In this document: piece after piece, positions 4,378-55,772 of the stretch
Position numbering within the stretch: position 1 is the first letter of the stretch
Layout: every line of letters starts with the position of its first letter
Origin: an uncultured Atopobiaceae bacterium
GTDB taxonomy: Bacteria; Actinomycetota; Coriobacteriia; Coriobacteriales; Atopobiaceae
Assembly (NCBI GenBank): GCA_944320385.1
Contig: CALUHH010000010.1
Coordinates: forward strand, 1 to 64,000
Direction of reading: 5' to 3'
DNA: 64,000 nt
Position numbers and translations under genes: made by a program
The notes under the pieces: generated by a model
Seen by the model: only the letters and a program-made list of their open reading frames with translations
Told to the model about the DNA's origin: nothing
The model's database searches: none

Positions 4378-5226
4378 GTGATCAGGCTCTTTGCGAGCGA
4401 CCTGGATGGAACGCTCTTCAACGCGCTGCACGAGGCGGACCGGGCCGTCCGGCGCGGCGTCTCCGTGGCGCTCGCAGCCGGGCGCCACGTTGCGCTCGCC
4501 ACGGGACGCTGGGCGAGCACACCCGCAGAGCTCGGCTTTCCCAACATGCCCCTCGAACTCGTCTGCGGCAACGGCGCCTTTGTCTACGGCTCGGACGGCG
4601 AGCTCCTGCGCCGCGTGCCCATCGACCCGGAAACCGTCGAGGAGCTGCTCTCCCGCTTCCCCACCATCTGCGCGACCTGCGTCACGGCCGGGGGAACCCT
4701 CGTGCGCGGAACGCGCAATCAGCAGCTCGCGAGCTACCGTCCGTCGCGCGGGCTTATGGGCCGCGTGGCGTCGTGGCGCTTCAGGAGGAGCCCGGGCAGC
4801 ACGGGCACGCGCTACGACCAGACCGACGCCGAGGTGCTGCGGCACGAGGTCTGCAAGCTCAACGTGCGCACGGGAGACGCTGGGCTGCGCCGCGAGCTTG
4901 ACGCCTTCGTGGCAGAGCACGCCTCCACGCTTGTGAACGCCTCGTTTGACGGGGACCTCTTCGAGCTCACCGCCGCGGGCGTCGACAAGGGCGAGGCGGT
5001 GGCGTGGCTCGCGCGGCACCTCGGCATGGACGAGGGCGAGGTCGCGGTCTATGGCGACGGGGGCAACGACCTTGCCATGCTCGAGCGCTTCGAGCACGCC
5101 TACGCAACGAGCGGCGCGAGCCCAGCGGCCAAGCGCGCCGCCGGCAGCGTCATCGGAAGCTGCGCGCTGCACGCGGTGCCCCGCCACATCGCGCGCACCG
5201 TCCGGCGCGAGGGCCCGCTCGGCTAG
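4378..5226 (+). CDS. HAD-superfamily (Cof-type) phosphatase
   Basis: A cytoplasmic phosphatase of the Cof/IIB HAD class, probably acting on small sugar or cofactor phosphates. The GTG start (VIRLFASDLDGTLF) has GGGAGGCACCC upstream. The nucleophile motif is DLDGT near residue 8, and the final motif GDGGNDLAML is near 220. The 282 residues suit the family. It lies 10 nt after the methyltransferase gene. Its stop codon overlaps the stop of the convergent kinase gene inside a shared CTAG. Confidence 0.88.
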   Translation: MIRLFASDLDGTLFNALHEADRAVRRGVSVALAAGRHVALATGRWASTPAELGFPNMPLELVCGNGAFVYGSDGELLRRVPIDPETVEELLSRFPTICATCVTAGGTLVRGTRNQQLASYRPSRGLMGRVASWRFRRSPGSTGTRYDQTDAEVLRHEVCKLNVRTGDAGLRRELDAFVAEHASTLVNASFDGDLFELTAAGVDKGEAVAWLARHLGMDEGEVAVYGDGGNDLAMLERFEHAYATSGASPAAKRAAGSVIGSCALHAVPRHIARTVRREGPLG

Positions 5227-19945: not shown

Positions 19946-20009
19946 GTGCACAGAAGTTTAGCAGAGGACGGCCGGACGTCGGGGCCGGCGCGGGCACTAT
20001 ACTGGAGGC

Positions 20010-21539
20010 ATGACTACGCTTGCAGAGCTCGCGCGCACCCTCGAAGAGGCGGGCATCCTCACATCCCTGACGCCAGGTGCGGACGTCAGCGTCTCCGGGG
20101 CCTCCTGCGACTCGCGCACCGTCGCCGCCGGCGAGCTCTTCGTGTGCAAGGGCGCGACCTTCCGCCCCGCGTTTCTCTCCGACGCCGTGGGGCGGGGCGC
20201 CGTCGCCTACCTCTGCGACGCCGACCACGCCGCCGAGCTCGCGGGCGTTGCCCCGGGCATCCCCGCCCTCGTGACGTCCGACCTGCGCCGAGCGATGGCG
20301 CTCTGCTCCGCGCAGGCCTTCGGACGCCCCGACCGCGACCTTCCGATCGTGGGCATCACGGGCACCAAGGGCAAGACGACCACGGCCTACATGCTGCGCT
20401 CGATCGTGGACGCGGCACGCGGCGAGAAGTCCTGCGGGATGATCGGCACCGTGGAGACCTATGACGGCGTGACGGACGAGCCCTCGAGAAACACCACGCC
20501 CGAGGCCCCTGACCTCTGGCGCCACCTCGCCCGCGCGCGCGACGCCCGCCTCTCCGCGCTGGTCATGGAGGTCTCGAGCCAGGCGCTCAAGTACGACCGC
20601 ACCTTTGGCGTGGGCCTGGACGTGGCCTGCTTCCTCAACATCGGCCTCGACCACATCTCCCCCGTCGAGCACGCGGACTTTGAGGACTACTTCACCTCCA
20701 AGCTCAAGATCTTCTCGCAGTGCGGGACGGCCGTGGTGAACCTCGACTCCGACCACGTCGACCGCATCCTCGAGGCCGCCGCGCACGCCCCGCGCCTGCT
20801 GACCTTTGGCGTCGGGCGGCCCGACGCGGACGCCTGGGCGGACGGGCTCGCCGCGTCCGAGGAGGGCATGACCTTCGTCCTGCACCTCGACGGCTGGGAG
20901 CGCCACGTGAGCCTGCCCTTCCCCGGCGACTTCAGCGTCTCCAACGCCCTTGCGGCGGCGCTCGCTGCGCACCTGCTGGGCATCGGGCCCGACGCCATCG
21001 CGGGGGGCCTCGCCGCCACGCGCGTGCCCGGCCGCATGGAGTTCTACCGCTCCCGCGACCGCAGGCTCACCGCGGTCGTCGACTACGCCCACAACCGCCT
21101 CGCCTTTGAGTCGCTGCTCTCAGCGGTCTCCGGCACCTTCAAAGACGCCCAGGTCATCGCCGTGTTTGGCGCCGTCGGCGGCAAGGCCGAGGAGCGCCGG
21201 CGCGACCTGCCCGAGGTGGCCGCGCGCTACGCGGACCACATCGTCCTGACCTCGGACGACCCGTGGACCGAGGACCCGCTCGACATCTGCCGCGAGATGG
21301 AGCGCGCGCTGCCCGCAGGCTTCCCGCACGAGATCGTGGTCGATCGCGAGCAGGCCGCGCGTCGCGCCTTTGAGCTGGCAGAGGGCCGGCGCAGCGTGGT
21401 CCTGCTGCTCGCCAAGGGCCACGAGGCCTACCAGCACACGCGCGAGGGCTTTGTCCCCTGCGTCTCCGACTGCGAGCTCGCGCGTCGCGGCGTCGAGGCC
21501 TACGACCGGGCGCACCCCTCCGAGCATCAGGATGCCTGA
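20010..21539 (+). CDS. murE: UDP-N-acetylmuramoyl-tripeptide synthetase (MurE)
   Basis: Adds the third amino acid to UDP-MurNAc-L-Ala-D-Glu in peptidoglycan synthesis. The 509 residues comprise the UDP-binding domain (1-110), the ATPase domain with P-loop GTKGKTTT (118-125), NTTPEAP, MEVSSQAL and FLNIGLDHISP, and the C-terminal ligase domain with VPGRMEFY and VVDYAHN. The position that reads DNPR in diaminopimelate-adding enzymes is DDPW here (TSDDPWTEDP), so the diamino acid should not be assumed to be meso-diaminopimelate. GGAGG lies only one base before the ATG and TATACT ends 6 nt upstream. The stop overlaps the next gene. Confidence 0.95.
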   Translation: MTTLAELARTLEEAGILTSLTPGADVSVSGASCDSRTVAAGELFVCKGATFRPAFLSDAVGRGAVAYLCDADHAAELAGVAPGIPALVTSDLRRAMALCSAQAFGRPDRDLPIVGITGTKGKTTTAYMLRSIVDAARGEKSCGMIGTVETYDGVTDEPSRNTTPEAPDLWRHLARARDARLSALVMEVSSQALKYDRTFGVGLDVACFLNIGLDHISPVEHADFEDYFTSKLKIFSQCGTAVVNLDSDHVDRILEAAAHAPRLLTFGVGRPDADAWADGLAASEEGMTFVLHLDGWERHVSLPFPGDFSVSNALAAALAAHLLGIGPDAIAGGLAATRVPGRMEFYRSRDRRLTAVVDYAHNRLAFESLLSAVSGTFKDAQVIAVFGAVGGKAEERRRDLPEVAARYADHIVLTSDDPWTEDPLDICREMERALPAGFPHEIVVDREQAARRAFELAEGRRSVVLLLAKGHEAYQHTREGFVPCVSDCELARRGVEAYDRAHPSEHQDA

Positions 21540-22401
21540 CCCCACCCTCATCGGCGTGGTCGCGGGCGAGCACGACCGCGCGGTCATCGCGACCGCCCTG
21601 CGCTGCGTCCTGGACGGCGGTGCCCCCTATGAGCACGTGGGCGTCATCGGTGGACGGGAGGTCTTTGACGGTGCGGAGTTCGCGCGCGGCGCCGATGCCG
21701 CCGCCGAGCTCGCCCGCCTCGAGGAGCACCTGGAGCACGCGCGCGCAGCGGGTCTCACTCACCTCGTGCTCGAGCTGCCCGACCGCGTCCCGGGCGAGAG
21801 CGACCTTCCCGCCCTCGACGTGCTCTGCTCGCTCGGCCCGGGCGGGGCGGGCACCGTGCGGGGGGCGCGCCGCAGCCTGAGCTTCTCCTCGCGCGGCACG
21901 CTCGCGGACGTGGGGTCGAGCCACGAGCGCGCCGGCTACGGCTTCGTGCAGTTCCGAGCGCATACGCCGAGCTGGGACGCCGACGTGGCGCTCCCGCTGC
22001 CGGGCATCTTCAACGTGGCGCCCGCGCTGGCGGCCGTCGCCACCCTCGAGCTTTTGGGCCGCGGCGCGCGCGGGGTGCAGGAGGGCCTCGCCTCGTCCGG
22101 CGTCCCCGGCCACGGGGAGCTGCTCTTCTCGCCCGACCAGCGCGTCTGCGCCATCGTGGAGCAGAGCGCGAGCCCCCGCGACCGCCGGCTCATCACCGAG
22201 GCGGCGCGCGAGGAGTTCGAGGGGTTTGCCCTGGAGGTGCTGACCGAGCTCGACGCGATCGAGCCCGCCGTCGCCCGCGGCTACGGGAGGCCGAGAAGGA
22301 CGTTGCTCGTTCTTCTCGGCCGGCCAGGAGAGGCCTATGCGGACGCCTTCCAGGCGGCGGTGCGCCGGCACTTTGCCTGGACCGGGCGACAGCAGGAGTA
22401 G
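21532..22401 (+). CDS. MurE-like pseudo-ligase lacking the ATP-binding loop
   Basis: A 289-residue protein whose ATG overlaps the murE stop by 8 nt. It can be laid along MurE from the ATPase domain onward: LIGVVAGEHDRAVIATALR against IVGITGTKGKTTTAYMLR, then HVGVIGGREVFDG against GMIGTVETYDG, LPLPGIFNVAPALAAVATLELLG against LPFPGDFSVSNALAAALAAHLLG, and VPGHGELLF against VPGRMEFY. The P-loop lysine and threonines are gone and the UDP-binding N-terminal domain is missing. It is therefore probably a non-catalytic partner or regulator made together with MurE. Homology is by eye; function is unknown. Confidence 0.7.
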   Translation: MPDPTLIGVVAGEHDRAVIATALRCVLDGGAPYEHVGVIGGREVFDGAEFARGADAAAELARLEEHLEHARAAGLTHLVLELPDRVPGESDLPALDVLCSLGPGGAGTVRGARRSLSFSSRGTLADVGSSHERAGYGFVQFRAHTPSWDADVALPLPGIFNVAPALAAVATLELLGRGARGVQEGLASSGVPGHGELLFSPDQRVCAIVEQSASPRDRRLITEAAREEFEGFALEVLTELDAIEPAVARGYGRPRRTLLVLLGRPGEAYADAFQAAVRRHFAWTGRQQE

Positions 22402-22423
22402 CACCTGCGCCGGCAAGCGTTCT

Positions 22424-22452
22424 CCGGCCAGCAAAGATCTGTACTTTGCCGG
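22424..22452. other. Stem-loop after the murE pair
   Basis: GCAAAG, a 7-nt loop and CTTTGC, flanked by CCGG and CGG arms, lies just past the pseudo-ligase stop. No T-run is present. It is a candidate weak terminator or RNA 3'-end structure. Confidence 0.4.
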
Positions 22453-22602
22453 AGCAGTCGAACGCATTCATCTAAGAAACCGCTGGTAGAAAACTTGTGC
22501 TTGCGTGCACATTGTTTGGGGCTTGCCATAAAGTACAGAAGTTTGGCCGCCGCGTCGACGCGGGTCAGGTATCGTAGGTGCCCCCATCTGGAAGGAGAAG
22601 GA

Positions 22603-22902
22603 GTGACACTCAAGGGAAGGCAGGTCAGGCAGCTCCGCAGCCTGGCGCATCATCTGGAGCCTGTGGTCATCATCGGCAAGGCGGACGTCAACGAGGGCAC
22701 CGTCGACCAGGCGGACAAGGCGCTCGAGGCGCGCGAGCTCATCAAGTGCTCCGTGCTCGACTCCTCGAGCCTGGACGTGCGCGAGGCCGGCGAGGAGCTC
22801 GCGGAGCGCTGCCATGCCGAGCTCGTGCAGGTCATCGGCCGCAAGTTCGTCCTCTATCGCGAGACCAGCCGCGAGGGCGTCGAGAAGATCCAGCTCGTCT
22901 AG
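22603..22902 (+). CDS. yhbY: YhbY/CRS1-type RNA-binding protein
   Basis: A 99-residue single-domain RNA-binding protein linked in other bacteria to ribosome (50S) assembly. The GTG start follows GGAAGGAGAAGGA. Family features are LKGRQVRQLRSLAHHLEPVVIIGKADVNEG and the late RCHAELVQVIGRKFVLYR. It lies about 200 nt after the murE pair and so probably has its own promoter. It ends at a repeat array. Confidence 0.92.
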   Translation: MTLKGRQVRQLRSLAHHLEPVVIIGKADVNEGTVDQADKALEARELIKCSVLDSSSLDVREAGEELAERCHAELVQVIGRKFVLYRETSREGVEKIQLV

Positions 22903-22924
22903 CGGGCGCGCGGCGGGCTGGGGC

Positions 22925-23225
22925 CGGGGCTGCTTAGACTTTGCGTCCCGTCCGGGATTTTTGCGTTGGCGCGCTTAGGAACTCGGTCTCGTCCGGGAAC
23001 CGGCGTCGGCGGCGCTTAACAATTGCGCCTCGTCCGGGGCGGCGAGGCGTCGGCGCTTAAGAATCGCGCCTCGTCTGGCGATAAGAACGGGCAATGCTTA
23101 AGGTTTGCGCCTCGTCCGGGAGGGGTGGCGCCCGAAGAGGGTCCGCTCTCCCGGATGAGGCGCGATCTCTAAGCAAGGGGGCTCGTTCTTCTCGGATAGG
23201 GCCGTTTTCTTAAGCGGCGGCCCGC
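22925..23225. repeat. Converging 41-bp-period repeat array (copy 1)
   Basis: This fills most of the 390-bp gap between convergent yhbY and the alcohol dehydrogenase. The core GCTTA starts at 22932, 22973, 23014, 23055 and 23096, exactly 41 bp apart, each followed by a variant of TTGCGCCTCGTCCGG. The reverse-complement core TAAGC ends at 23174 and 23215, also 41 bp apart. Five forward units meet two inverted units. There is no coding sequence. Similar units occur at 26781-27190 and 55674-55772. Function is unknown; the position suggests a transcription boundary or a nucleoid or gyrase site. Confidence 0.88.
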
Positions 23226-23239
23226 CGACGGCCCGGCGC

Positions 23240-23271
23240 AAAAAGGGGCCGGACCCGAAGGCCCGGCCCCT
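23240..23271 (-). terminator. Terminator of the alcohol dehydrogenase gene
   Basis: On the minus strand AGGGGCCGG and CCGGCCCCT pair around a short loop containing TTCG, and TTTTTG follows. It lies 22 nt past the stop codon. Confidence 0.9.
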
Positions 23272-23292
23272 CCGCACTGCGATGAGAGCGCC

Positions 23293-24507
23293 TTAGAAGT
23301 CCACGTCGACGTCGTTGTAGACGCACTCGAGGAGCTTCTCCATCTCCTCGGGCGTGGGCTGGCGGGGGTTGGAGCCGGTGCAGGCGTCGCCGATGGCGTC
23401 GACGGCGATGCGGCTCTTCTTCTCCTCGAACTCGGCGTAGTCGATGATGGACTCGTCGGCCTTCACGCCGCCCTTGCCGTAGTTCTTGATGCCCTGCGGG
23501 ATGTCCAGCTTGTCGTTGAGGTCGCGGATCTCCTGCACGAGGGCGGCAACGAGCTCGTCCTCGGTCTCGCCGGCGAGGTGCAGGACCTCCTTGGCGATGT
23601 AGGCGTAGCGGCTCTTGGCGCGGGCGTCCTTGGCGTTGAACTGGATGACCTTGCCGAGGTACATGGCGTTGGCGCAGCCGTGGATGATGTGGTCGCCGGT
23701 GAAGGCGGCGCCGGTCTTGTGCGCCATGGAGTGCACGATGCCGAGCAGGCCGCTCGAGAAGGCGATGCCGGCGATGCACTGGGCCTCGTGCATGTGCTGA
23801 CGGGCCTCCTTGTCGCCCTGGTAGCTCTTGGGCAGCCACTCGACGATCTCACGGATGGCGTGGAGGGCGTTGGCGTCGGTGAACATGGAGCCCGCGGTGG
23901 AGACGTAGGCCTCGATGGCGTGGGTCAGCGCGTCCATGCCGGTGTGGGCGCAGAGCTTCTGCGGCATGGTGTAGGTGAGCTCGGGGTCGACGATGGCCAC
24001 GTCAGGCGTGATGTTGAAGTCGGCGAGCGGGTACTTGATGCCCTTCTCGTAGTCCGTGATGACGGAGAAGGCCGTGACCTCGGTGGCCGTGCCGGAGGTG
24101 GAGGCGATGGCGCAGAACTTGGCCTTGGTGCGCAGCTCCGGGAAGGAGAACGGGACGATGGCCTGCTCGAAGGTCTCCTCGGGGTACTCGTAGAAGAGCC
24201 ACATGGCCTTGGCCGCGTCGATCGGGGAGCCGCCGCCGATGGCGACGATCCAGTCGGGCTGGAAGGCCTCCATGGCCTTGGCGCCCTTCATGACGGTCTC
24301 GACGGACGGGTCGGACTCGACGCCCTCGAAGATCTGGACCTCGAAGCCGGCCTCCTTGAGGTCAGCCTCAACGTCCTGCAGGAAGCCGCCGCGGCGCATG
24401 GAGCCGCCGCCGGTCACGATCATGGCCTTGGAGCCCTTGAGGTTCTTGACCTCGTGGCGGGCACCCTCGCCAAAGTACAGGTCACGCGGGTTGGTGAAAC
24501 GTCCCAT
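23293..24507 (-). CDS. Iron-containing alcohol dehydrogenase
   Basis: Group III metal-dependent alcohol dehydrogenase, probably reducing aldehydes to alcohols to dispose of NAD(P)H during fermentation. The 404 residues include the cofactor-binding IVAIGGGSPIDAAKAM (about 89-104), STSGTATEVTAFSVI, and the metal ligands in GMDALTHAIEAYVS, GIVHSMAHKTGAAF and IIHGCANAMYL. The start has GGAGGAGTGTT upstream. It is a single-gene unit with its own terminator. Substrate (butanol, propanediol or other) cannot be fixed from sequence. Confidence 0.92.
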   Translation of the reverse strand: MGRFTNPRDLYFGEGARHEVKNLKGSKAMIVTGGGSMRRGGFLQDVEADLKEAGFEVQIFEGVESDPSVETVMKGAKAMEAFQPDWIVAIGGGSPIDAAKAMWLFYEYPEETFEQAIVPFSFPELRTKAKFCAIASTSGTATEVTAFSVITDYEKGIKYPLADFNITPDVAIVDPELTYTMPQKLCAHTGMDALTHAIEAYVSTAGSMFTDANALHAIREIVEWLPKSYQGDKEARQHMHEAQCIAGIAFSSGLLGIVHSMAHKTGAAFTGDHIIHGCANAMYLGKVIQFNAKDARAKSRYAYIAKEVLHLAGETEDELVAALVQEIRDLNDKLDIPQGIKNYGKGGVKADESIIDYAEFEEKKSRIAVDAIGDACTGSNPRQPTPEEMEKLLECVYNDVDVDF

Positions 24508-24551
24508 AACACTCCTCCAATTCCTGTGCCGTCGCCCCCGCGACGGATCTC

Positions 24552-24576
24552 AAACAGGGTTCTCCCCCTGTTTTTT
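24552..24576. promoter_or_regulatory. Stem-loop in the leader of the alcohol dehydrogenase gene
   Basis: AAACAGGG, a 6-nt loop and CCCTGTTT form a perfect 8-bp dyad with a T-run on the plus side, about 45 nt upstream of the dehydrogenase ATG. It could be an operator or an attenuator. A possible -10 TATGCT lies further upstream on the minus strand (around 24635). Confidence 0.4.
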
Positions 24577-24752
24577 ACCGAACGAGAAGTACCGCGACCC
24601 GGCCACCAAAACTCCATGACTCGAGCCGCACACAGCATAGCAGAAACGCGTTGGCAACAGAGCGCTTTTTCCGTCCCCGCCCGATCGGGCCGCCGAGCGT
24701 CGCGGGGGCCGCCGCGCTCGGCTACCATAGAGGGACGAGAGGAGCATCAACG

Positions 24753-25796
24753 ATGGCGCACAACCCACAGCGCGAGGACTACCAGCGGCTCGGCCTGCGC
24801 TTCGCCCGCGAGCTCGACCAGGGCGACCCGGCCGCGGCGACGCGCGCGTTCGCGAGCTTTGGCCGCCGCTTCGCGCAGAACCGCGACGCCCTCCCGCAGT
24901 CCGACGCCGACCGGGCCTTCCACCTCGTGGTTCTCGCCTCGGAAGTCGTTGACTACCAGCTTCCCTTTGCCACCGACGAGCAGGCCCCCGGGCTCATCCA
25001 GCGCGGCAAGGACCTCCTTGACGAGGCGCTTTCGCTGGACCCGAGCTGCCACGACGCCGTTCGCATGCGCTCGTCCTCGCAGACGCCCTCGATCGACGAG
25101 CGCTACCGCTTCCTCCTTGAGCGCGTCGACGACGTGCGCGCCTCCTGCGAGCAGGCCCGCGAGGAGGCGGGCGCCGAGCTCGACGGCGAGCGGCGCGCCC
25201 TCGCGCAGGACATCGCCATGCGCCCCTACTGGCGCTGGATGGCCTCGCTGGCGGAGGAGGCCCTGATCTGCGGGCGCAACCTCGCCGCGGCCGACGCCGC
25301 CGAGCGGCTCCTCGCGGCGGACCCGCGCGACACCTCCGACGCGCGCTTCACGCTCTCCTACGCGCTCGCCAAGCTGGAGGACGAGAGGGGGCTCGCCGAG
25401 CTCGAGCGGCGCTACGCCGAGATCTCGCCCCTGCGCGGGCCCGACGACGCGTGGATCTTGCTCGCCCATCTCGCGCTCGCGCACAAGCGCTGCGACTTCA
25501 GGGGCGCCCGCGCCCAGCTCAGGCGCATCGTCGAGCTCTATCCGGGCGCCGTCGGGACCCTCGTTCGCCAGTCGGAGCTGCCCGACGGCGAGTTCGCGCG
25601 CCTGCGCGTTGCGCCCTACAGCGAAGACGAGCTCGTCCTCGCCGTCAGCGAGGGCGTGGTGCTGCTGCAGGAGGGAAACGACCGCTCCGGCCGCGGCGTC
25701 CTCGGGTCGTGGGTGGCCAGGGAGGCCGCGCTCCTCGACCCCGCGGCGGCGCGCGAGGCGGCCTCCGCGGCACAGCCGGAGGAGGCGCAGCGATGA
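24753..25796 (+). CDS. Helical-repeat (TPR-like) protein of unknown function, paralogue 1
   Basis: A 347-residue, alanine- and arginine-rich protein without signal peptide or membrane segment. The second half is made of helix pairs resembling TPR repeats, for example AADAAERLLAADPRDTSDAR followed by FTLSYALAKLEDERGLAELE. The start follows GAGAGGAGCATCAACG. The stop overlaps the next ATG as ATGA, and the two proteins resemble each other through the helical part. No enzyme motif is seen. A protein-protein scaffold role is likely but unproven. Confidence 0.75.
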   Translation: MAHNPQREDYQRLGLRFARELDQGDPAAATRAFASFGRRFAQNRDALPQSDADRAFHLVVLASEVVDYQLPFATDEQAPGLIQRGKDLLDEALSLDPSCHDAVRMRSSSQTPSIDERYRFLLERVDDVRASCEQAREEAGAELDGERRALAQDIAMRPYWRWMASLAEEALICGRNLAAADAAERLLAADPRDTSDARFTLSYALAKLEDERGLAELERRYAEISPLRGPDDAWILLAHLALAHKRCDFRGARAQLRRIVELYPGAVGTLVRQSELPDGEFARLRVAPYSEDELVLAVSEGVVLLQEGNDRSGRGVLGSWVAREAALLDPAAAREAASAAQPEEAQR

Positions 25797-26752
25797 ACGC
25801 CTGGGAGGAGCTGGTCGAGCGCTGCGCGCGGCGCCGGTGCGAGAAGATCGGGCCGCTCTCCGACGAGGCCTACGCGGAGCTCGTGCTCGCGGTGCGGGCC
25901 GACCCCGAGGCCTTCGTCGACACCGAGCAGGAGCGCGCGGCGCTCGTGATCGCCCGGGCGCTCGACGCGTACCGCGCGAGCTGCCGAGACGACGAGCTTC
26001 TCGACGACGCCGCCTACGAGGCCGAGCGCGCCCGCAGGATGGCCGCGCTCCGCGCCGAGTGCGTGCGCGCGCTCGAGGTCGACGGGCGCAGCCTCGACGC
26101 CGGCCTCCTCCAGCTCCTCTCCTCCGACCTCGAGCCCGACCCCCTGCTCGCGGGCCTGCTCTCGCTCGAGCGCGACCACGCGCGCGACGAGCTGCCCGAG
26201 GGCGACGCCTGGGACGACGTCTTCTACCGCCCCCACCTGCGCCTGCGCGCCGCCGTGGCGCGCGTCTGCCTCGACGGGGCACGCTACCGCATGGCCGAGA
26301 GCGCCGCGACCTCGGTGATGGACGCCGCCCCGAGCGACCCCCTCGGCGCGCGCCACACCCTCGTGCTGGCCTGCGCCCGCCTCGAGGACGAAGCGGGCTT
26401 CGACGCCGCGTGCGCGCGCTTCTCGCGCCAGGAGAGCGCCTGGTCGCACCTGGCGCGGACGCTGCTGCTCTACAAGCTCGACCGGATGAGCGCGGCGCGC
26501 CGGGCCCTGCGCGGCTACGCCGAGCTGTGCGCGGGGGGCGCCTATGCGCTGCTGAGGCCCACCTACGTCGAGACGTACCTGCCCGACCGGCAGGATGCCG
26601 CGCCCTGCAGCTTCGAGGAGTGCCTGCTCGCGGTGTGCGAGGCGGAGCCCATCATCGCCGACGTGCCCGACTTCATCCCCTGGTGCCAGGAGCAGGAGTG
26701 GCTGGTCGAGGGCGCGCGCCGCTTTGCCCAGGGGCGAGACCTAGACTGGTAG
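25793..26752 (+). CDS. Helical-repeat (TPR-like) protein of unknown function, paralogue 2
   Basis: A 319-residue cytoplasmic protein coupled to the preceding gene by an ATGA overlap. The segment MAESAATSVMDAAPSDPLGA with RHTLVLACARLEDEAGFDAA aligns with the matching part of paralogue 1, and the C-terminal SFEECLLAVCEAEPIIADVP matches its YSEDELVLAVSEGVVLLQEG. The pair looks like an old tandem duplication that has diverged. No catalytic motif is recognisable. It ends at a 41-bp repeat array. Confidence 0.72.
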   Translation: MNAWEELVERCARRRCEKIGPLSDEAYAELVLAVRADPEAFVDTEQERAALVIARALDAYRASCRDDELLDDAAYEAERARRMAALRAECVRALEVDGRSLDAGLLQLLSSDLEPDPLLAGLLSLERDHARDELPEGDAWDDVFYRPHLRLRAAVARVCLDGARYRMAESAATSVMDAAPSDPLGARHTLVLACARLEDEAGFDAACARFSRQESAWSHLARTLLLYKLDRMSAARRALRGYAELCAGGAYALLRPTYVETYLPDRQDAAPCSFEECLLAVCEAEPIIADVPDFIPWCQEQEWLVEGARRFAQGRDLDW

Positions 26753-26774
26753 CATCCGCGGTGGGGCGGGGCGG

Positions 26775-27192
26775 GCACGCCGCTTAAGAAACGCGGCTCA
26801 TCCTGAGGCGCGGGCCCGCCGCGCTTAAAGATTGCGCCTCATCCGGAGAAGCGGGCTCGCTGCGCTTAAGGATTCGCCTCCGTCCGGAGAAGCGGGCTCG
26901 CCGCGCTTAAAGATCGCGCCTCATTCGAGAAAATGACGCCGCCGCGCTTAAGAAACGCGTCCTGTCCAGGGGCGCCTCCCGTCCACGCGAGGCATTCCCT
27001 CCGGATGGGCGGCAAATGCTAAGCACCGCTCGTCCTTCTCGCCGGATGAGGCCGATTTGTTAAGCATGCCAGCGCCGATTTTCCGGACGGGGCAAAAAGA
27101 TTAAGCGAGAAGAACGGGCCCTCCCGGACGGGAGGCGATTGTTAAGCAGCGGGCCGCCGGCCCTCCCGGACGGGACGCGATTGTTAAGCAGT
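26775..27192. repeat. Converging 41-bp-period repeat array (copy 2)
   Basis: This fills the roughly 500-bp gap between the helical-repeat genes and convergent tRNA-Glu. CGCTTA starts at 26781, 26822, 26863, 26904 and 26945, exactly 41 bp apart. The inverse core TAAGC(A) ends at 27025, 27066, 27107, 27148 and 27190, spaced 41, 41, 41 and 42 bp. Each unit carries a variant of GCGCCTCATCCGG and a spacer such as AGAAGCGGGCTCGC. Five forward units face five inverted units around position 26985. The innermost forward and inverse cores are 78 bp apart, as in copy 1. No coding sequence is seen. Confidence 0.9.
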
Positions 27193-27209
27193 CGCCCGGT
27201 GCGCGACGC

Positions 27210-27242
27210 AAAAGGCCCGGGCCGCGCGGGACGGTCCGGGCC
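27210..27242 (-). terminator. Terminator of tRNA-Glu
   Basis: GGCCCGG and CCGGGCC pair around a GC-rich loop, with TTTT on the minus strand, 13 nt past the tRNA 3' end. Confidence 0.75.
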
Positions 27243-27254
27243 GAGACGTCGTGG

Positions 27255-27327
27255 TGCCCCCAACGGGAGTCGAACCCGTGTCGTCGCCTTGAAAGGGCGA
27301 TGTCCTAGGCCACTAGACGATGGGGAC
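27255..27327 (-). tRNA. tRNA-Glu (anticodon TTC)
   Basis: A 73-nt cloverleaf on the minus strand with acceptor GTCCCCA/TGGGGGC, anticodon loop CTTTCAA (anticodon TTC) in stem CGCC/GGCG, and T loop GTTCGACTC. The second acceptor pair is a T-G wobble. CCA is not encoded. Confidence 0.94.
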
Positions 27328-27396
27328 GCGCAGCAGAGTATACCAGAGGCTAGACGAGAAGAACGTCGGGCCCAAACCCATGCTCAAGACGTCGCC

Positions 27397-27548
27397 TAGG
27401 GGCGGTGGGACTCCGCGTTCGCAAAATCAGCGAACGCGCCGGCTTCGGAGGCCTCCGGCCTCCTCGCCCGCTCGCTACGGACGCTCTCGCGTCCGCTTAA
27501 CGCTCGCGCCCTCTCGGGTTCGAGTCCGTGCACTCAACTCGTCGCTGG
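27397..27548. repeat. Partial tRNA-Leu 3'-end duplication with three hairpins
   Basis: TAGGGGCGGTGGGACTC at 27397-27413 repeats the 3' end of the tRNA-Leu gene (27549-27565), 152 bp away in the same orientation. Between the copies are three perfect hairpins: 27414-27438 (CGCGTTCGC arms), 27447-27463 (GGAGGCC arms) and 27478-27495 (CGGACGC arms). A direct repeat of a tRNA 3' end is what an integrated element leaves as attachment sites, but no integrase is present. A structured RNA is an alternative reading. Confidence 0.6.
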
Positions 27549-27630
27549 TAGGGGCGGTGGGACTCGAACCCACAATCCTTGCGGCCGAAGATTTTAAGTC
27601 TCCTGCGTATGCCAATTCCGCCACGCCCCC
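27549..27630 (-). tRNA. tRNA-Leu (anticodon TAA)
   Basis: An 82-nt class II tRNA on the minus strand with acceptor GGGGGCG/CGCCCCT, anticodon loop CTTAAAA (anticodon TAA), a long variable arm (TTCGGCCGCAAGGA region) and T loop GTTCGAGTC. CCA is not encoded. Confidence 0.94.
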
Positions 27631-27648
27631 GCGACGACAGATACCATC

Positions 27649-28662
27649 CTAGCTCAGCGGGCGCATCGTGGGCTTCCAGATCACCGGGGACTCCGCGCCG
27701 GTCAGCGCGGCCGCGGCGGTGGTCGCCAGGCCGAAGAGCAGGTCGGACTCGCTGGCGATGAGCTCCTCGAAGCCCGTCTGGCGCATGAGCTCCAGAACGG
27801 CGACCGCCCCGCCCAGGATGACCGGGGCGCGCTTGGCCTGAAGGCCCGGCAGCTCGGCGCGCTGCTCGACCGTCATGCCGGCGAGGCGCCCCTCGAGCTC
27901 CTCGACCTTCTCGCGAGAGAGCCGTCCCAGGTGGACGCGCGTGGGGTCATACGGGTCGAGGCCCAGGCTCACGGCAACGAGGCTCGTCACCGTTCCGCCG
28001 CACACGACGAGGTGCTCGGGCGCGCCCTCGGCCGCCCGCGCGGCGCCCGCCGCAAAGAGGCCGCCCTCGGCGATCGCCGGGGCAAAGGCCTTTGCCGCAA
28101 AGGCGTGCGCGGCGTCGAGGTCGTCTGCGGACGGAAGGGGCCCCGCGGAGAGGAACTTCTCGGTCACGCGACGGCAACCCACGTCGATGGAGCGAACAAA
28201 CCCGAGGTCAAGGGCACCGTCGCGGCGCAGCGACCCCAGGGCGAGCTCCGTCGAGCCGCCACCGTTATCCGCCACGAGGATGCGCTTGCCGGGGAAGTCG
28301 CGCGCCACGCCCAAAAACGTGAGGGCGCCCTCGATCTCGCCGGGGATGACCAGCGGGTCGAGGCCCAGCGAGTCGAGCGCCGCGCCGAGCTCGGCCGCGT
28401 TCTCGGCGTCGCGCGCCGCGCTCGTGAGCGTGCAGCACACCGCTTCTGCATGGGCGTCGCGGGCGGACTCCACGTAGCCGCGCACGCAGGCAAAGACGCG
28501 CTCCATGGCGCCCTGCGCGAGCCGGCCGGTCGCGTCCACCCCCTCGCCCAGGTTGCAGATCTCCGAGTGCTTGGCGAGGCGCAGCACGCGCCCCTCCTCG
28601 ACGTCCGCCACGGCGAGGCGCGCGGTCACGGTGCCGATGTCGATGCAGGCTACGCGGGGCAT
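27649..28662 (-). CDS. Ppx/GppA-family exopolyphosphatase/pppGpp phosphatase
   Basis: An ASKHA-fold phosphatase acting on polyphosphate or pppGpp. The ATG at MPRVACIDIGTVTARL follows GAGGAGGAGT and overlaps the DivIC-like stop as TAATG. The phosphate-binding segments are CIDIGTVTARL (6-16) and ILVADNGGGSTELALG (near 122-137). The 337 residues match the short, single-module type. Pairing of a DivIC/FtsB-like gene with ppx is common in actinobacteria, which supports both calls. Confidence 0.9.
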   Translation of the reverse strand: MPRVACIDIGTVTARLAVADVEEGRVLRLAKHSEICNLGEGVDATGRLAQGAMERVFACVRGYVESARDAHAEAVCCTLTSAARDAENAAELGAALDSLGLDPLVIPGEIEGALTFLGVARDFPGKRILVADNGGGSTELALGSLRRDGALDLGFVRSIDVGCRRVTEKFLSAGPLPSADDLDAAHAFAAKAFAPAIAEGGLFAAGAARAAEGAPEHLVVCGGTVTSLVAVSLGLDPYDPTRVHLGRLSREKVEELEGRLAGMTVEQRAELPGLQAKRAPVILGGAVAVLELMRQTGFEELIASESDLLFGLATTAAAALTGAESPVIWKPTMRPLS

Positions 28663-29228
28663 TACTCCTCCTCGTGATACTGGAACACGAAGTCGCCCAG
28701 CGAGAGGTACCACGGGAGGCTCTGCTCGGGCTGCTCGTCGCCCTCCTCCTCGGGAAGGCCGACGGCGGTCACGCCGGACTCGCCCTCCGTGACGTAGCCG
28801 CGCTTGCGGGCCTCGTCCTCGATGCCCTCGCGGGTCTGGAGCTGGTCGATGTCGTGCTGGTACTCGTCGATGCTGGCGGTGAGGCCGTCGAGCGTGGCCT
28901 GGTTGAGCATCTGCTCGCGCCACGCGGCGTACAGGCCCTGGGCCGGGCCGTACAGCGTGACCAGGACGATCAGCGTCACGACGGCGACGACGAGGGGCGT
29001 GCGCGCCTTCCCGAGGCTCGCCGCGACGCCCTTGGCGCGCTCCGCGAGGGAGCCGGCGCGCGACGGGCCCGCGGCCGTCTTGGAGGGCTTTGACGTCTTC
29101 GCGCCCTTTGCCGCAGGGCGCCTCCCGACGCCCTGGGAGGCCCTGCCCGCCGGACGGCGCACGGCCCGGGAGGCCGTCGCGGCGCTCTTCTGCCTCCTCG
29201 TGGAGGCCGTCAACGTTCTCTCGCTCAT
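28662..29228 (-). CDS. Septum formation initiator (DivIC/FtsB-like)
   Basis: A bitopic cell-division protein. Its 188 residues comprise a very basic, Ala/Arg/Lys-rich cytoplasmic tail (1-75), one membrane helix (about 78-93, PLVVAVVTLIVLVTLY), and an extracytoplasmic coiled coil with TASIDEYQHDIDQLQTREGI followed by the DivIC-typical EDEARKRGYVTEGE. An acidic tail ends the protein. It lies between mazG and ppx and shares one base with ppx. Confidence 0.85.
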   Translation of the reverse strand: MSERTLTASTRRQKSAATASRAVRRPAGRASQGVGRRPAAKGAKTSKPSKTAAGPSRAGSLAERAKGVAASLGKARTPLVVAVVTLIVLVTLYGPAQGLYAAWREQMLNQATLDGLTASIDEYQHDIDQLQTREGIEDEARKRGYVTEGESGVTAVGLPEEEGDEQPEQSLPWYLSLGDFVFQYHEEE

Positions 29229-29320
29229 GCCCGTTCGTTTCTCTCTTGATTTTGGCGGGGCGGCGGCGCACGGCCGCTCTCACCCCGTTATACCAGACGG
29301 CGCCGCGGGCGACGGGCGCG

Positions 29321-30175
29321 TCAGGACATCTCCTCTTCCTTCGCACGGTCCCAGAGCTCGTTCATGCGCCCCGTGCCCAGGTCCTCAAGGTCGGCCCCGT
29401 CCTCGCGGGCGAGCGCCTCCATGCGCGCCCAGCGCGCCCTGAACTTGCGGTTGGCGTGGGCGAGCGCCTCCTCGGCGTCGATCCCCTCCCAGCGCGCCAC
29501 GTTCACCAGCGAGAAGAGCAGGTCGCCAAACTCCGCGGCGCGCTCGGAGGAGCCCGGCGCCTCGCGCTCGAACTCCGCGCGCTCCTCGGCGACCTTGTCC
29601 CAGACCGCGGCGACGTCGGGCCACTCAAAGCCCGCCTTCGCCGCGCGCTTGGAGATCTTCTGGCACTGCATGAGCGCCGGCAGGGCGCGCGGCACGCTGT
29701 CGAGAAGACCCTGGGGCCGCTCGTCCTTCTCGCCCGACGCGGCGCGCTCCGCAGCCTTGACCTCGTCCCAGATGTCCTGGACCTCGTTGCCGTCACCGGC
29801 CGCCACATGCTCGCCGAAGACGTGCGGGTGGCGGCGCACGAGCTTCTCGTTGAGGCCGTGGATGACGTCGTCGATCGAGAAGGCGCCCTCGTCGGCCGCG
29901 ATCTGCGCGTGAAGGACCACCTGCTCGAGCACGTCGCCGAGCTCCTCGGCCAGGTGCGCGTCGTCCCCGGCCTCGATGGCCTCCACCGCCTCGTAGGCCT
30001 CCTCGACCATGTGCTTGGTGATGGAGCGGTGCGTCTGCTCGCGGTCCCACGGGCAGCCGTCGGGCTGGCGCAGGCGCCACATCGTGCGCACCAGTCGGTC
30101 GAACTCGGGGTGAGCGGACGGCGCGCCGGGGCGTGCGGCGTTCTCGGCATCCACGCGATCTGCTGTCTTTGACAT
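29321..30175 (-). CDS. mazG: Nucleoside triphosphate pyrophosphohydrolase MazG
   Basis: House-cleaning NTP pyrophosphohydrolase of 284 residues with two MazG modules. The first has CPWDREQTHRSITKHMVEEA with the metal-binding EEAYEAVEAIE and ELGDVLEQVVLHAQIA. The second, at 180-245, has EERAEFE and EFGDLLFSLVNVAR. It is preceded by a 70-bp double palindrome that also forms the end of the upstream gene. Confidence 0.93.
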   Translation of the reverse strand: MSKTADRVDAENAARPGAPSAHPEFDRLVRTMWRLRQPDGCPWDREQTHRSITKHMVEEAYEAVEAIEAGDDAHLAEELGDVLEQVVLHAQIAADEGAFSIDDVIHGLNEKLVRRHPHVFGEHVAAGDGNEVQDIWDEVKAAERAASGEKDERPQGLLDSVPRALPALMQCQKISKRAAKAGFEWPDVAAVWDKVAEERAEFEREAPGSSERAAEFGDLLFSLVNVARWEGIDAEEALAHANRKFRARWARMEALAREDGADLEDLGTGRMNELWDRAKEEEMS

Positions 30176-30188
30176 CTGGCTCCTCCGT

Positions 30189-30259
30189 CTGTCAATTGGG
30201 GACAGTCCCCAACTAACAGAAATCTTTTATGTGAATTGGGGACTGTCCCCAATTGACAG
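30189..30259. repeat. 70-bp double palindrome, copy 1 (GGGGACTGTCCCC core)
   Basis: The left arm 30189-30212 is the exact reverse complement of the right arm 30236-30259 (24 nt). Each arm contains its own palindrome TTGGGGAC/GTCCCCAA. The middle holds ACAGAAATCTTTTATGT. Near-identical copies lie at 57252-57320 and 61095-61165. The right arm supplies the last codons and stop region of the biotin-ligase-like gene, so the element has been captured by a reading frame. Confidence 0.9.
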
Positions 30260-30772
30260 AACGCGGAGGGCGGCCTGCTCGGGGGCGAGCTCCAGCTCCC
30301 GGCCGTCCTCGAGGCGCACCGTCGCGCGCCCCCAGACGTCGACGCCGGCGAGCGTCCCGCGCGCGACGACGCGAGCGCCGCGCAGCACCTCGACCTGCTC
30401 GCCCATGCCGAGAAGAACGTCAAAGTAGTCGCCCAGCACGGAGGCCAGCGGCCCCGCGACGCCGCGGCCGGCGGCGTACTCCCCCGCCCAGGCGTCCACG
30501 GCACCCGCGGCCGCACGCTCGAGCGCGGCGGCGTCGAGGACCCCGCCCTCGTCCCACGTGAGGTCGCAGCGCACGAAGACGCCCTCGTCGTCGTAGCCGG
30601 CGCGCGCGTCAACGTAGACGAGCGGCTCGCCCTCCGCCGAGACCACGCCGTGCGGCCAGGAGAGCCGCGCGCCGAGCTCGCGCGCCACGCCGAGAGCGCA
30701 CACGTAGGGCGCGCCCGTCACAAACCCCATGGGAACCGCCGGTCGCAGGATGAGCGACGTCCCTACTCCCAT
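30227..30772 (-). CDS. Degenerate biotin-protein-ligase-like protein
   Basis: A 181-residue protein resembling the central and C-terminal parts of BirA. LRPAVPMGFVTGAPYVCALGVARELGARLSWPHGVV matches the segment that ends in KWPND in active ligases, but here the catalytic lysine position is serine and the motif reads SWPHG. The N-terminal GRGRxG biotin loop is absent. The SH3-like C-terminal domain (VEVLRGARVVARGTLAGVD) is kept. It probably cannot make biotinyl-AMP. The last ten residues (IGDSPQFT end) are encoded by a palindromic repeat. The start has GGGGGAGGTCGC upstream and overlaps the folP-folK end by 10 nt. Confidence 0.65.
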   Translation of the reverse strand: MGVGTSLILRPAVPMGFVTGAPYVCALGVARELGARLSWPHGVVSAEGEPLVYVDARAGYDDEGVFVRCDLTWDEGGVLDAAALERAAAGAVDAWAGEYAAGRGVAGPLASVLGDYFDVLLGMGEQVEVLRGARVVARGTLAGVDVWGRATVRLEDGRELELAPEQAALRVLSIGDSPQFT

Positions 30773-32211
30773 GCGACCTCCCCCAGGTCGGCCGTCACGT
30801 GGCCGACGCGCTCCTCGCGCGGGGCGACCTCGACGCCCGCGTGGGCGAGGAAGCGCTCCGGGCTGTGCATGAGGTCCTCCATGGGAACGATGACGTAGTC
30901 GCGCTCGCCGAGGCGCGGGTGCGGCAGCGTCAGGCGCGCGCCGGCGTGGCGCTCGCCCTCGACCCACACGAGGTCGCAGTCGATCGTGCGCGGGCCCGAG
31001 CCCGGTTTTCTGGGGTCGCGGTCCTTCTCGCGCATCCTGCCGAGCTCGTCCTCGACCTCGAGGAGCTTGCCCATCAGCACGAGCGGGTGGAGCTCGGTGC
31101 GAATCTCGGCGACGGCGTTTGCCACGGGCGTGGCGATGCCGTAGGCGGGCTCGGTCTCGTAGGCATGGCTCACGCTGACCACGCAGGTGAGGGGAATCTC
31201 GTCGATGAGCTGCACCGCGCGCGCGATGTTGCCCACGCGGTTGCCCACGTTGGAGCCCAGGCTCACAAAGCCCTGGCGCGGGTCCTTGTGGGAGACGGCC
31301 CAGTAGGCGTTCACGGCCTGGGCCGCGCCGGCGACGTCGTGGACGCGCAGGATGCGCGCGCCGTTCTCGATGGCGGAGATGCAGACGCCCGCCGTCGCGG
31401 CGTCGCGGGCGGCGGCGTCGCTCACGCCGGAGAGCGCCCCGACGAAGCGCTTGCGCGACACGGCGCACACGAGCGGGTAGCCCATCGACGCCATGGAGCG
31501 CGTCGAGCGCTGGATGACCACGTCCTCGTCGGCGTACTTGTCAAAGCCCGCGCCCGGGTCCATGCAGATTCGGTCGTGGCTGACGCCGGCGCGCTGCAGC
31601 GTGCGCGCCTGGTCGCCGAGAAACCCCATGACCTGGCGCATGATCGGCGCCTCCTCGGGCAGCGTGAAGCGGCGCTGGGAGAGGACCGGTCGGGGCAGCG
31701 CGCTGCCGTTCGGCCGGCTCTGGTCGAGGGTGACCTGGCGGCGCGGGGCGCGCGTGCCCAGCCCGTCGCGGTTCCAGTGCATGACGATGCAGCCGCAGGA
31801 GGTGTCCGCCGCCACCTTGACCATCTCGGGGTCGGTGAAGCCCGAGACGTCGTTGACGATGGCGGCCCCCAGGCGCACGCACATGCGCGCCACGTCGGCG
31901 TGGCGCGTGTCGATGGAGACGACCGCGCCCGCCTCGACCAGCGCGCGGACCACGGGGACCACGCGCTGCGCCTCGACCTTGGACGAGACGGGCGTGTGAC
32001 CGGGGCGCGTGGACTCCCCGCCCACGTCGATGATGTCGGCGCCCTCGTCGAGCATCTGGAGGCCGCGGGCGATGGCGGCCTTCTCGTCGAGGTTCTCGCC
32101 CCCGTCCGAGAAGGAGTCGGGGGTCACGTTGAGAATGCCCATGATTCGTGGGCGCGCGAGCGAGATCTCGTGGGCGCCGCAGTGCCAGGTAGCGAAGTTC
32201 TCTCGGAGCAT
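30763..32211 (-). CDS. folP-folK: Bifunctional dihydropteroate synthase/HPPK
   Basis: A fusion of two folate-pathway enzymes. The start MLRENFATWHCG is chosen for GAGGGGAAGTC upstream. The DHPS part (about 1-315) has IMGILNVTPDSFSDGG, DVGGESTRPGHTPV and DPGAGFDK. The HPPK part (about 320-482) has FVSLGSNVGNR, YETEPAYG and RKPGSGPRTIDCDLVW. It would make dihydropteroate and the pyrophosphorylated pterin it needs on one chain. No folB lies between or beside them in the window. Confidence 0.93.
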   Translation of the reverse strand: MLRENFATWHCGAHEISLARPRIMGILNVTPDSFSDGGENLDEKAAIARGLQMLDEGADIIDVGGESTRPGHTPVSSKVEAQRVVPVVRALVEAGAVVSIDTRHADVARMCVRLGAAIVNDVSGFTDPEMVKVAADTSCGCIVMHWNRDGLGTRAPRRQVTLDQSRPNGSALPRPVLSQRRFTLPEEAPIMRQVMGFLGDQARTLQRAGVSHDRICMDPGAGFDKYADEDVVIQRSTRSMASMGYPLVCAVSRKRFVGALSGVSDAAARDAATAGVCISAIENGARILRVHDVAGAAQAVNAYWAVSHKDPRQGFVSLGSNVGNRVGNIARAVQLIDEIPLTCVVSVSHAYETEPAYGIATPVANAVAEIRTELHPLVLMGKLLEVEDELGRMREKDRDPRKPGSGPRTIDCDLVWVEGERHAGARLTLPHPRLGERDYVIVPMEDLMHSPERFLAHAGVEVAPREERVGHVTADLGEVAWE

Positions 32212-34196: not shown

Positions 34197-34321
34197 GGGT
34201 TTTGCTCGAGCAAAACCCGGACCCTCGCCGCTCCGCGTTACGTTTCCGCAGCTCGCCGTTCTTCTCGCCTATCGAGAAGAACGGCGAGCTCGTACATTTC
34301 TCGATAGGCTCTGTACGAGCT
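34197..34321 (-). repeat. 120-bp triple-hairpin element, copy B
   Basis: Three dyads sit in the gap between two convergent genes: a 22-nt palindrome with core TTTTGCTCGAGCAAAA (34197-34218), an 18-bp stem with GTTCTTCTCG arms and 5-nt loop (34250-34290), and a CGTACA/TGTACG dyad (34287-34321). Read on the minus strand, the order and much of the sequence match 36561-36680. Both copies occupy convergent gaps, so a bidirectional terminator or insulator role is likely. Confidence 0.85.
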
Positions 34322-36560: not shown

Positions 36561-36680
36561 CGTCGTACAAACTCACCCGAGAAATGTACGGGCACCTCGT
36601 TCTTCTCGTCTGGCGAGAAGAACGCTGAGCTGGGAAAAGTTCGGGCGGCATTCTGCCGCGGCAGGATTGCTCGAGCAAAA
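36561..36680 (+). repeat. 120-bp triple-hairpin element, copy A
   Basis: It starts five bases after the exoA stop. The parts in order are a CGTACA/TGTACG dyad around CGAGAAA (36564-36590), CGTTCTTCTCG with 5-nt loop and its complement (36598-36624), a GCGGCA hairpin, and the palindrome TTGCTCGAGCAA (36667-36678). It aligns with the minus strand of 34197-34321. It sits in the gap between convergent exoA and the PHP gene. Confidence 0.85.
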
Positions 36681-55673: not shown

Positions 55674-55772
55674 CGCGCTTACGGTTTGCCGCGCGTCCGA
55701 GGGGAGGCCGGACGTCGCCGCGCTTACGGTTTGCCGCGCGTCCGGGAAGTCGGGCCGCCGCAGATCTCAAGC
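55674..55772. repeat. Short relative of the 41-bp repeat arrays (copy 3)
   Basis: CGCGCTTACGG-TTTGCCGCGC appears at about 55674 and 55719 (cores 45 bp apart), and an inverted TCAAGC ends at 55772. The GCTTA...GCGCGTCCGG layout matches the arrays at 22925 and 26775. It lies between licR and hspR on the same strand. No gene is seen in it. Confidence 0.65.

Follow-up and report, generated by a model that had tools for sequence, protein, structure and literature searches.

The 64,000-nucleotide stretch of Atopobiaceae DNA that we analysed (the window) contains two intergenic arrays of an asymmetric 24-bp unit. The unit recurs in 41-bp steps within two halves, forward in the left half and inverted in the right. 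Throughout the genome such arrays keep the same motif, period and order of orientations, the distance between their halves changes by whole turns of the double helix, and they stand between transcription units, where specific insertion sequences (IS) target them; relatives carry arrays at some of the same positions. With modest confidence, we regard them as BIME-like dispersed intergenic arrays of the protein-binding type, which would serve as a cooperative platform for a putative protein between transcription units and are exploited by IS elements.

Array 1 (22932-23215) has five forward units on the + strand, running from the outermost, F5 (GCTTAGACTTTGCGTCCCGTCCGG, 22932-22955), through F4 (GCTTAGGAACTCGGTCTCGTCCGG, 22973-22996), F3 (GCTTAACAATTGCGCCTCGTCCGG, 23014-23037) and F2 (GCTTAAGAATCGCGCCTCGTCTGG, 23055-23078) to F1 (GCTTAAGGTTTGCGCCTCGTCCGG, 23096-23119). 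The last of these adjoins a 31-bp junction (23120-23150), beyond which two inverted units, R1 (GCTTAGAGATCGCGCCTCATCCGG, 23151-23174) and R2 (GCTTAAGAAAACGGCCCTATCCGA, 23192-23215), lie on the - strand. All seven cores are, exact to the base, where an earlier note on this DNA had placed them. The steps between them are 41, 41, 41 and 41 bp, then 55 bp start to start across the junction, the commonest junction class in the genome (25/45), and again 41 bp. The gene gap is convergent, as the same note had said. To the left, yhbY, encoding the ribosome assembly RNA-binding protein YhbY (22603-22902, + strand; NCBIfam TIGR00253, 86.6 bits with a cut-off of 78.5, plus Pfam CRS1_YhbY), has its stop codon 30 bp from the array, and to the right lies a gene for an iron-containing alcohol dehydrogenase (23293-24507, - strand; Pfam Fe-ADH, 159 bits). 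A hairpin with a TTTTT tail to the right of the array (23239-23271, - strand), recognised from an inverted repeat and the sequence and absent from the output of a pattern scan, probably serves the alcohol dehydrogenase gene as an intrinsic terminator ahead of the array. The segment 23293-24507, like locus L145, shares about 99% identity with Olsenella sp. An293 (genome G009), and the neighbouring DNA 89%; such patches reflect either recent interspecies exchange or assembly mixing.

A larger array, missing from the earlier note, lies 3.6 kb away (array 2, 26782-27189). Its five forward units start at 26782, 26823, 26864, 26905 and 26946 (26782-26969, + strand), in 41-bp steps, and its five inverted units at 27001, 27042, 27083, 27124 and 27166 (27001-27189, - strand), in steps of 41, 41, 41 and 42 bp, with a junction of 55 bp. 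Since a tRNA-Glu(ttc) gene lies on the - strand to its right (27252-27327; ARAGORN, Rfam), this gap is also convergent. Elsewhere in the window, two variant units (GCTTACGGTTTGCCGCGCGTCCGR, 55677-55745) stand by themselves in a tandem gap at a distance of 45 bp, with no inverted half, and 31-bp tandem repeats occur at 52-126 and 137-236 (2.4 and 3.2 copies). The 10-mer CGAGAAGRAC is present 38 times in the 64-kb window against 0.43 expected (for example at 34258-34282 and 36599-36623). This excess is partly codon use (C GAG AAG GAC in frame), yet about 10 kb of intergenic sequence contains 12 of the copies, and some of these form inverted pairs separated by 15 bp. The 10-mer is also found in array spacers and in the centres of the type 3 elements described below, and its pattern resembles that of DNA uptake sequences.

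The unit has the consensus (Y)GCTTARGGATYGCGBCYCRTCCGG, in which a 5-6 bp block and a 10-bp block enclose a variable middle. Among 212 copies, GCTTA is nearly invariant, position 6 is mostly R, the end reads C-R-T-C-C-G-G and T20 is invariant; about 99% of copies are preceded by C or T. The earlier note had proposed a genome-wide search for the motif. In the genome to which the window belongs (2.2 Mb in 58 contigs, an Atopobiaceae genome related to Olsenella sp. An293), the 24-bp motif with at most three mismatches gave 262 matches, compared with 2 for a reversed control pattern, and 328 pairs exactly 41 bp apart, compared with 1 in the control, both far above chance. We read 50 arrays or array halves as stretches of their loci, and the pair counts suggest a total of about 60 arrays. 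Across 140 genomes of the family, 41-bp pairs numbered 328 in this genome, 21 in G016, 11 in G018 and 4 each in G009 and G010, with single matches in G019 and G102, so that arrays occur in number only in genomes of the same genus. A strict array pattern searched in the GTDB contig collection matched Atopobiaceae records only. We found no description of such repeats in the open-access literature. The repeat family is real and apparently undescribed, a variant of dispersed intergenic repeats.

Random spacing of the other copies was the outcome that the earlier note had set against its reading of a phased array. They hold their spacing: 251 of 262 single same-strand steps measure 41 bp, nine 42 bp, one 43 bp and one 45 bp (the doubtful pair at 55677), and eight further steps (81-83 and 123 bp) are multiples of about 41 bp across missed units. 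Every complete junction (45/45) has forward units followed by inverted ones with their tails facing, none has the reverse order, and there is one junction per array. Measured start to start, the junctions are 34 (2 cases), 44 (11), 45 (3), 54 (3), 55 (25) and 76 bp (1), lengths that fit 10.57 bp per step with a residual sd of 0.34 bp. These 45 junctions include related copies, near-identical at several loci, and hence are not 45 independent events. Taken alone against a uniform expectation, the six distinct values give a resultant of 0.96 at 10.5 bp (0 of 20,000 random draws, p<0.0001).

Spacer identity is 0.44 between neighbours and 0.37, the background, between arrays. Spacers of fixed length with near-random letters, together with whole-turn changes at the junction, speak for selection on the geometry of the double helix. 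The earlier note had also held that the step puts every motif on one face of the helix. The 41-bp step stands, but the claim about the face is true only at 10.25 bp per turn, where 41 bp makes exactly four turns: 10.5 does not divide 41 evenly, and at 10.5 bp per turn the units drift by about 34 degrees each, hence same-face placement within a five-unit row is not established. Junction length is better evidence of phasing than the 41-bp step. The suggestion of a phased protein-binding array thus holds for the phasing, which is supported at the level of sequence by the 41-bp period, the unrelated spacers, the quantised junctions and the same design in relatives, whereas the binding is putative.

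The earlier note had offered a multi-armed RNA or cruciform boundary as the other possibility. Here the inverted halves would fold as a long stem that terminates transcription or shields transcript ends from both sides. Placement after stop codons would suit such a role, and folding of array 1 compared with shuffled sequences gave z values of -5.9 and -3.8 on the two strands, with a mean of -8 across 24 arrays; any inverted copies of one motif, however, would fold strongly. Mirror spacers are no more alike (0.391) than non-mirror ones (0.392), and the innermost mirror units show only a slight excess over the other inverted units of their array (0.604 vs 0.583). Predicted pairing of a unit with its mirror partner is no greater than with any other inverted unit, and no convincing pair of covarying columns was found within the unit in 141 copies. 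Nor did Rfam models match at array 1 or array 2 (window 20000-32000). Furthermore, the sequence itself is conserved at fixed spacing, beyond what complementarity asks for, the junction period matches B-DNA, and the alcohol dehydrogenase gene apparently has its own terminator before array 1. We therefore rejected the RNA or cruciform boundary, for which mirror covariation is lacking, and judge it very improbable. The unrelated spacers and the scarce covariation of mirror units indicate that the constraint is the geometry of B-DNA rather than a stem.

For placement, genes were called with a simple hexamer model, and 29 arrays had called genes on both sides. Their gaps were convergent in 12 cases, tandem in 15 and divergent in 2, compared with 14, 68 and 29 among 111 background gaps. 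Convergent gaps are thus enriched for arrays (12/29 vs 14/111, p=0.001) and divergent gaps depleted (2/29 vs 29/111, p=0.025). The convergent setting given by the earlier note is therefore correct for array 1 and not exclusive across the genome. In 12 of 13 tandem gaps the array was closer to the upstream stop than to the downstream start. Copies inside genes as often as between them, the second outcome that the earlier note had set against its reading, were not seen, none of the 50 arrays lying within a predicted gene. The types of gap and the nearness to the upstream stop imply that the arrays stand between transcription units.

The ends of the contigs showed a further property of the arrays. 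Of 116 contig ends 113 were read, and 45 of these close with a sequence from a small set of IS ends. A scored array unit was touched by 37 of the 45 IS ends, in contrast to 1 of the 68 others (p=9e-21). The element A/A2 cuts within the first seven bases of the unit (GCTTARR) in 20/20 ends and leaves a CTTAAG-type sequence on either side, as would fit a 6-bp duplication; the related element in genome G017 encodes a transposase of the IS481 family (266 bits with a cut-off of 224). The element C/D enters the variable spacer 2-6 bp ahead of a unit in 9/11 ends and has an IS3-family relative in G017 (224 bits, cut-off 160), and a third IS, B/E, enters within GCTT(A)AAGG in 14/14 ends. The pairing of ends into A/A2, B/E and C/D is partly inferred, C/D alone having been seen as the two ends of one element (G017). 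Contig ends with an IS at an array are found among L058, L061, L065-L068, L133-L148 and L286-L365. Many assembly breaks of this genome are thus due to IS elements that have entered array units at fixed points.

Insertion into intergenic repeats is known for REP sequences, which are targets of IS elements, IS3 members included (PMC1525189). It would also suit a neutral satellite, that is, a sequence prone to duplication and gene conversion whose period is kept by the copying of whole units and in which IS insertion is harmless. Fresh tandem duplicates are indeed seen in locus L135, and the number of arrays differs greatly among close species. Tandem duplication by descent could yield the exact period without selection, which counts against the protein platform. 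A neutral satellite nevertheless leaves unexplained the strict order of forward before inverted units, the one-turn increments of the junctions in three unrelated families, the conservation of motifs beside almost unrelated spacers of fixed length, and the decayed units of G009 that are still 41 bp apart. We consider this origin improbable.

Comparison with relatives bears on both the positions and the design. Among the arrays read in G016 and G018, 5/7 correspond to array loci of the present genome by homology of one flank or of both; at these homologous loci unit numbers differ and the units have diverged. In G009 the gap of array 1 holds two decayed units still 41 bp apart, as seen in the sequence, and other gaps are empty; opposite the arrays L062 and L135, Olsenella sp. 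An293 has unaligned gaps of 37 bp and 72 bp. At L062 a near-perfect inverted repeat of about 49 bp (CATTCAAAAGGGGACAGGTACAAAACCCC..., ~4953-5056) adjoins the array and is missing at the empty site in G009. The one near-identical pair of orthologous arrays, L145/L157, shows 2 differences in 750 aligned bases, flanks included, and is therefore uninformative on the conservation of units relative to spacers. Since most other species of the genus have no recognisable arrays of this kind (type 1), an essential shared role is not indicated.

Two further families occupy some of the same gaps. Another array gap of the present genome is occupied in G017 by GCGCARTCNNNNNCTTGGTGCGAA units (type 2). The 20 type 2 elements read in G017 mostly have two units per half in inward orientation, with steps of 40 bp in 34/38 cases and junctions of 107, 117/118, 125, 127-129 and 139 bp (helical spacing, p=0.0004); neither the spacers nor the centres of different copies are related. 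In G009 the gap of array 2 holds a different element, with AGGGTATGTACAC or AGGGTTTGTACAC twice per half in 22-bp steps. Type 3 (AGGGTATGTACAC, 22-bp steps) has 29-49 matches in each of four genomes, the present one (G000), G009, G016 and G018, and a smaller number in six further genomes, some elements being matched twice owing to the 22-bp step. Olsenella sp. An293 has tens of type 3 elements beside one good type 1 array. Its distances from forward to inverted units fall in classes near 82/83, 92-94 and 104, and its centres share the motifs CGAGAAGAAC and CTGACCTGCGGTTTTGC (loci L161:11890-12029, L162, L164 and L167; G000:C1:76775-76891). Hence the inward, helically spaced design recurs with different letters in three families of one genus. 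The gene on the right-hand side of the L054 array has, in the gap upstream of it (L170-L198), inverted pairs of a CTACCTGCGGTTTTGTA-like motif that flank a terminator-like hairpin; such pairs occur in many species of the genus and are possibly another conserved site pair.

Forward units facing inverted ones are also the layout of multi-site transposon ends, and the arrays may be miniature mobile elements, ends without a middle that would owe their spread to a transposase since lost or not found. DDE transposases of the IS21/Tn7/Mu type, which have tandem HTH domains, bind several direct-repeat sites per end, and helical spacing would permit two ends to pair over very short DNA. The ends of IS21 are direct repeats of two conserved blocks about one turn apart, and IstA requires that each end have two complete repeats (PMC10122671); the activity of a CRISPR-associated transposon varies with the distance between binding sites with a period of about 10 bp (PMC10201428). 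The arrays share with IS21/Tn7/Mu ends the direct repeats, the two conserved blocks, the inversion between halves and the helical spacing dependence, and differ in that their halves enclose no transposase gene, each side can have as many as nine units and only dispersed copies occur. A few unrelated loci have near-identical cores, once inverted, with identity falling outwards, and the edges of types 2 and 3 are often TG..CA, as a mobile origin would have it. Against this, cores are common to few type 1 loci only (median junction identity 0.48), the centres of type 2 are unrelated between copies, and unit number varies. By eye, no target duplication was seen at type 1 edges, in two empty-site comparisons or in 20 type 2 elements, the edges being eroded. 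None of the 45 junctions exceeds 76 bp start to start, and no long version with an internal gene was seen. An IS21-type parent was rejected, as the IstB (PF01695) and rve (PF00665) loci fetched from four to five genomes contained no unit, and a plasmid, phage or viral origin was rejected because viral contigs, plasmids and phages gave no match. A mobile origin therefore appears rather unlikely, if clearly less so than a neutral satellite.

The closest known elements are REP/BIME sequences, described in PMC1525189 and PMC2817692 as extragenic, present in hundreds of units per genome, regularly spaced in clusters, clade-specific and targeted by IS elements. The arrays resemble them in being extragenic (0/50 in genes) with more than 100 copies per genome (262 units) and in being the target of specific IS elements (37/45 IS-end contig ends). 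However, REP units are short palindromes, whereas the array unit is asymmetric and lacks intra-unit pairing covariation (141 units), and BIMEs alternate in orientation, whereas forward units precede inverted ones at 45/45 array junctions; the 41-bp step and the junction quantised by helical turns are further differences. As two defining features fail, namely the palindromic unit and the alternating orientation, we do not file the arrays as REP/BIME. Like REPINs and MITEs, the arrays are short, non-coding and dispersed, with inverted halves, but they show no visible target duplication (at eroded edges), their unit number is variable, no cognate transposase was found at the IstB/rve loci, and neither most type 1 copies nor the type 2 copies share an interior. 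The neisserial NIME/dRS3 elements likewise stand between genes as arrays in which variable spacers separate short inverted repeats; unlike the present arrays, they are not known to have a fixed 41-bp unit or helical quantisation. A conserved repeat with varied spacers of constant length recalls CRISPR. The arrays differ in their degenerate 24-bp repeats, 17-bp spacers, two opposed halves and roughly 60 loci, and on this layout of degenerate repeats in opposed halves we rejected a CRISPR reading.

We return to the protein platform. Each asymmetric 24-bp unit would be the site for one protomer of a candidate bipartite DNA-binding protein, and protomers would align head to tail every 41 bp within each half. 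The inward-pointing halves may then be joined across a junction of integral helical turns, as transposases do at multi-site ends. Standing between transcription units, mostly just past stop codons, the platform would most likely be an architectural or insulating element. Elements of the IS481 family, of the IS3 family and of a third IS take the arrays as a landing site. Arrays would spread and change by copying of cores between loci, tandem duplication of units and decay. Protein binding, bridging of the halves and an insulating role are what we infer; as 7/20 type 2 elements of G017 occur in divergent gaps, the insulator reading in general is weakened.

More tentatively, the arrays could represent a novel class of chromosomal site, in which polar converging rows of the candidate bipartite protein would synapse only at integral turns and provide tens of insulator-like boundaries. 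The motif would be replaced between species with the geometry and often the gap kept, and unrelated IS families would target the sites. For this genome, the arrays account for the distribution of IS elements and for much of the fragmentation of the assembly, with several IS families sharing one common target. For the genus, they are a natural sequence record of a rule of DNA geometry, halves being set integral turns apart in three families. If a protein does bind them, a bacterial boundary or bridging factor would be legible straight from sequence.
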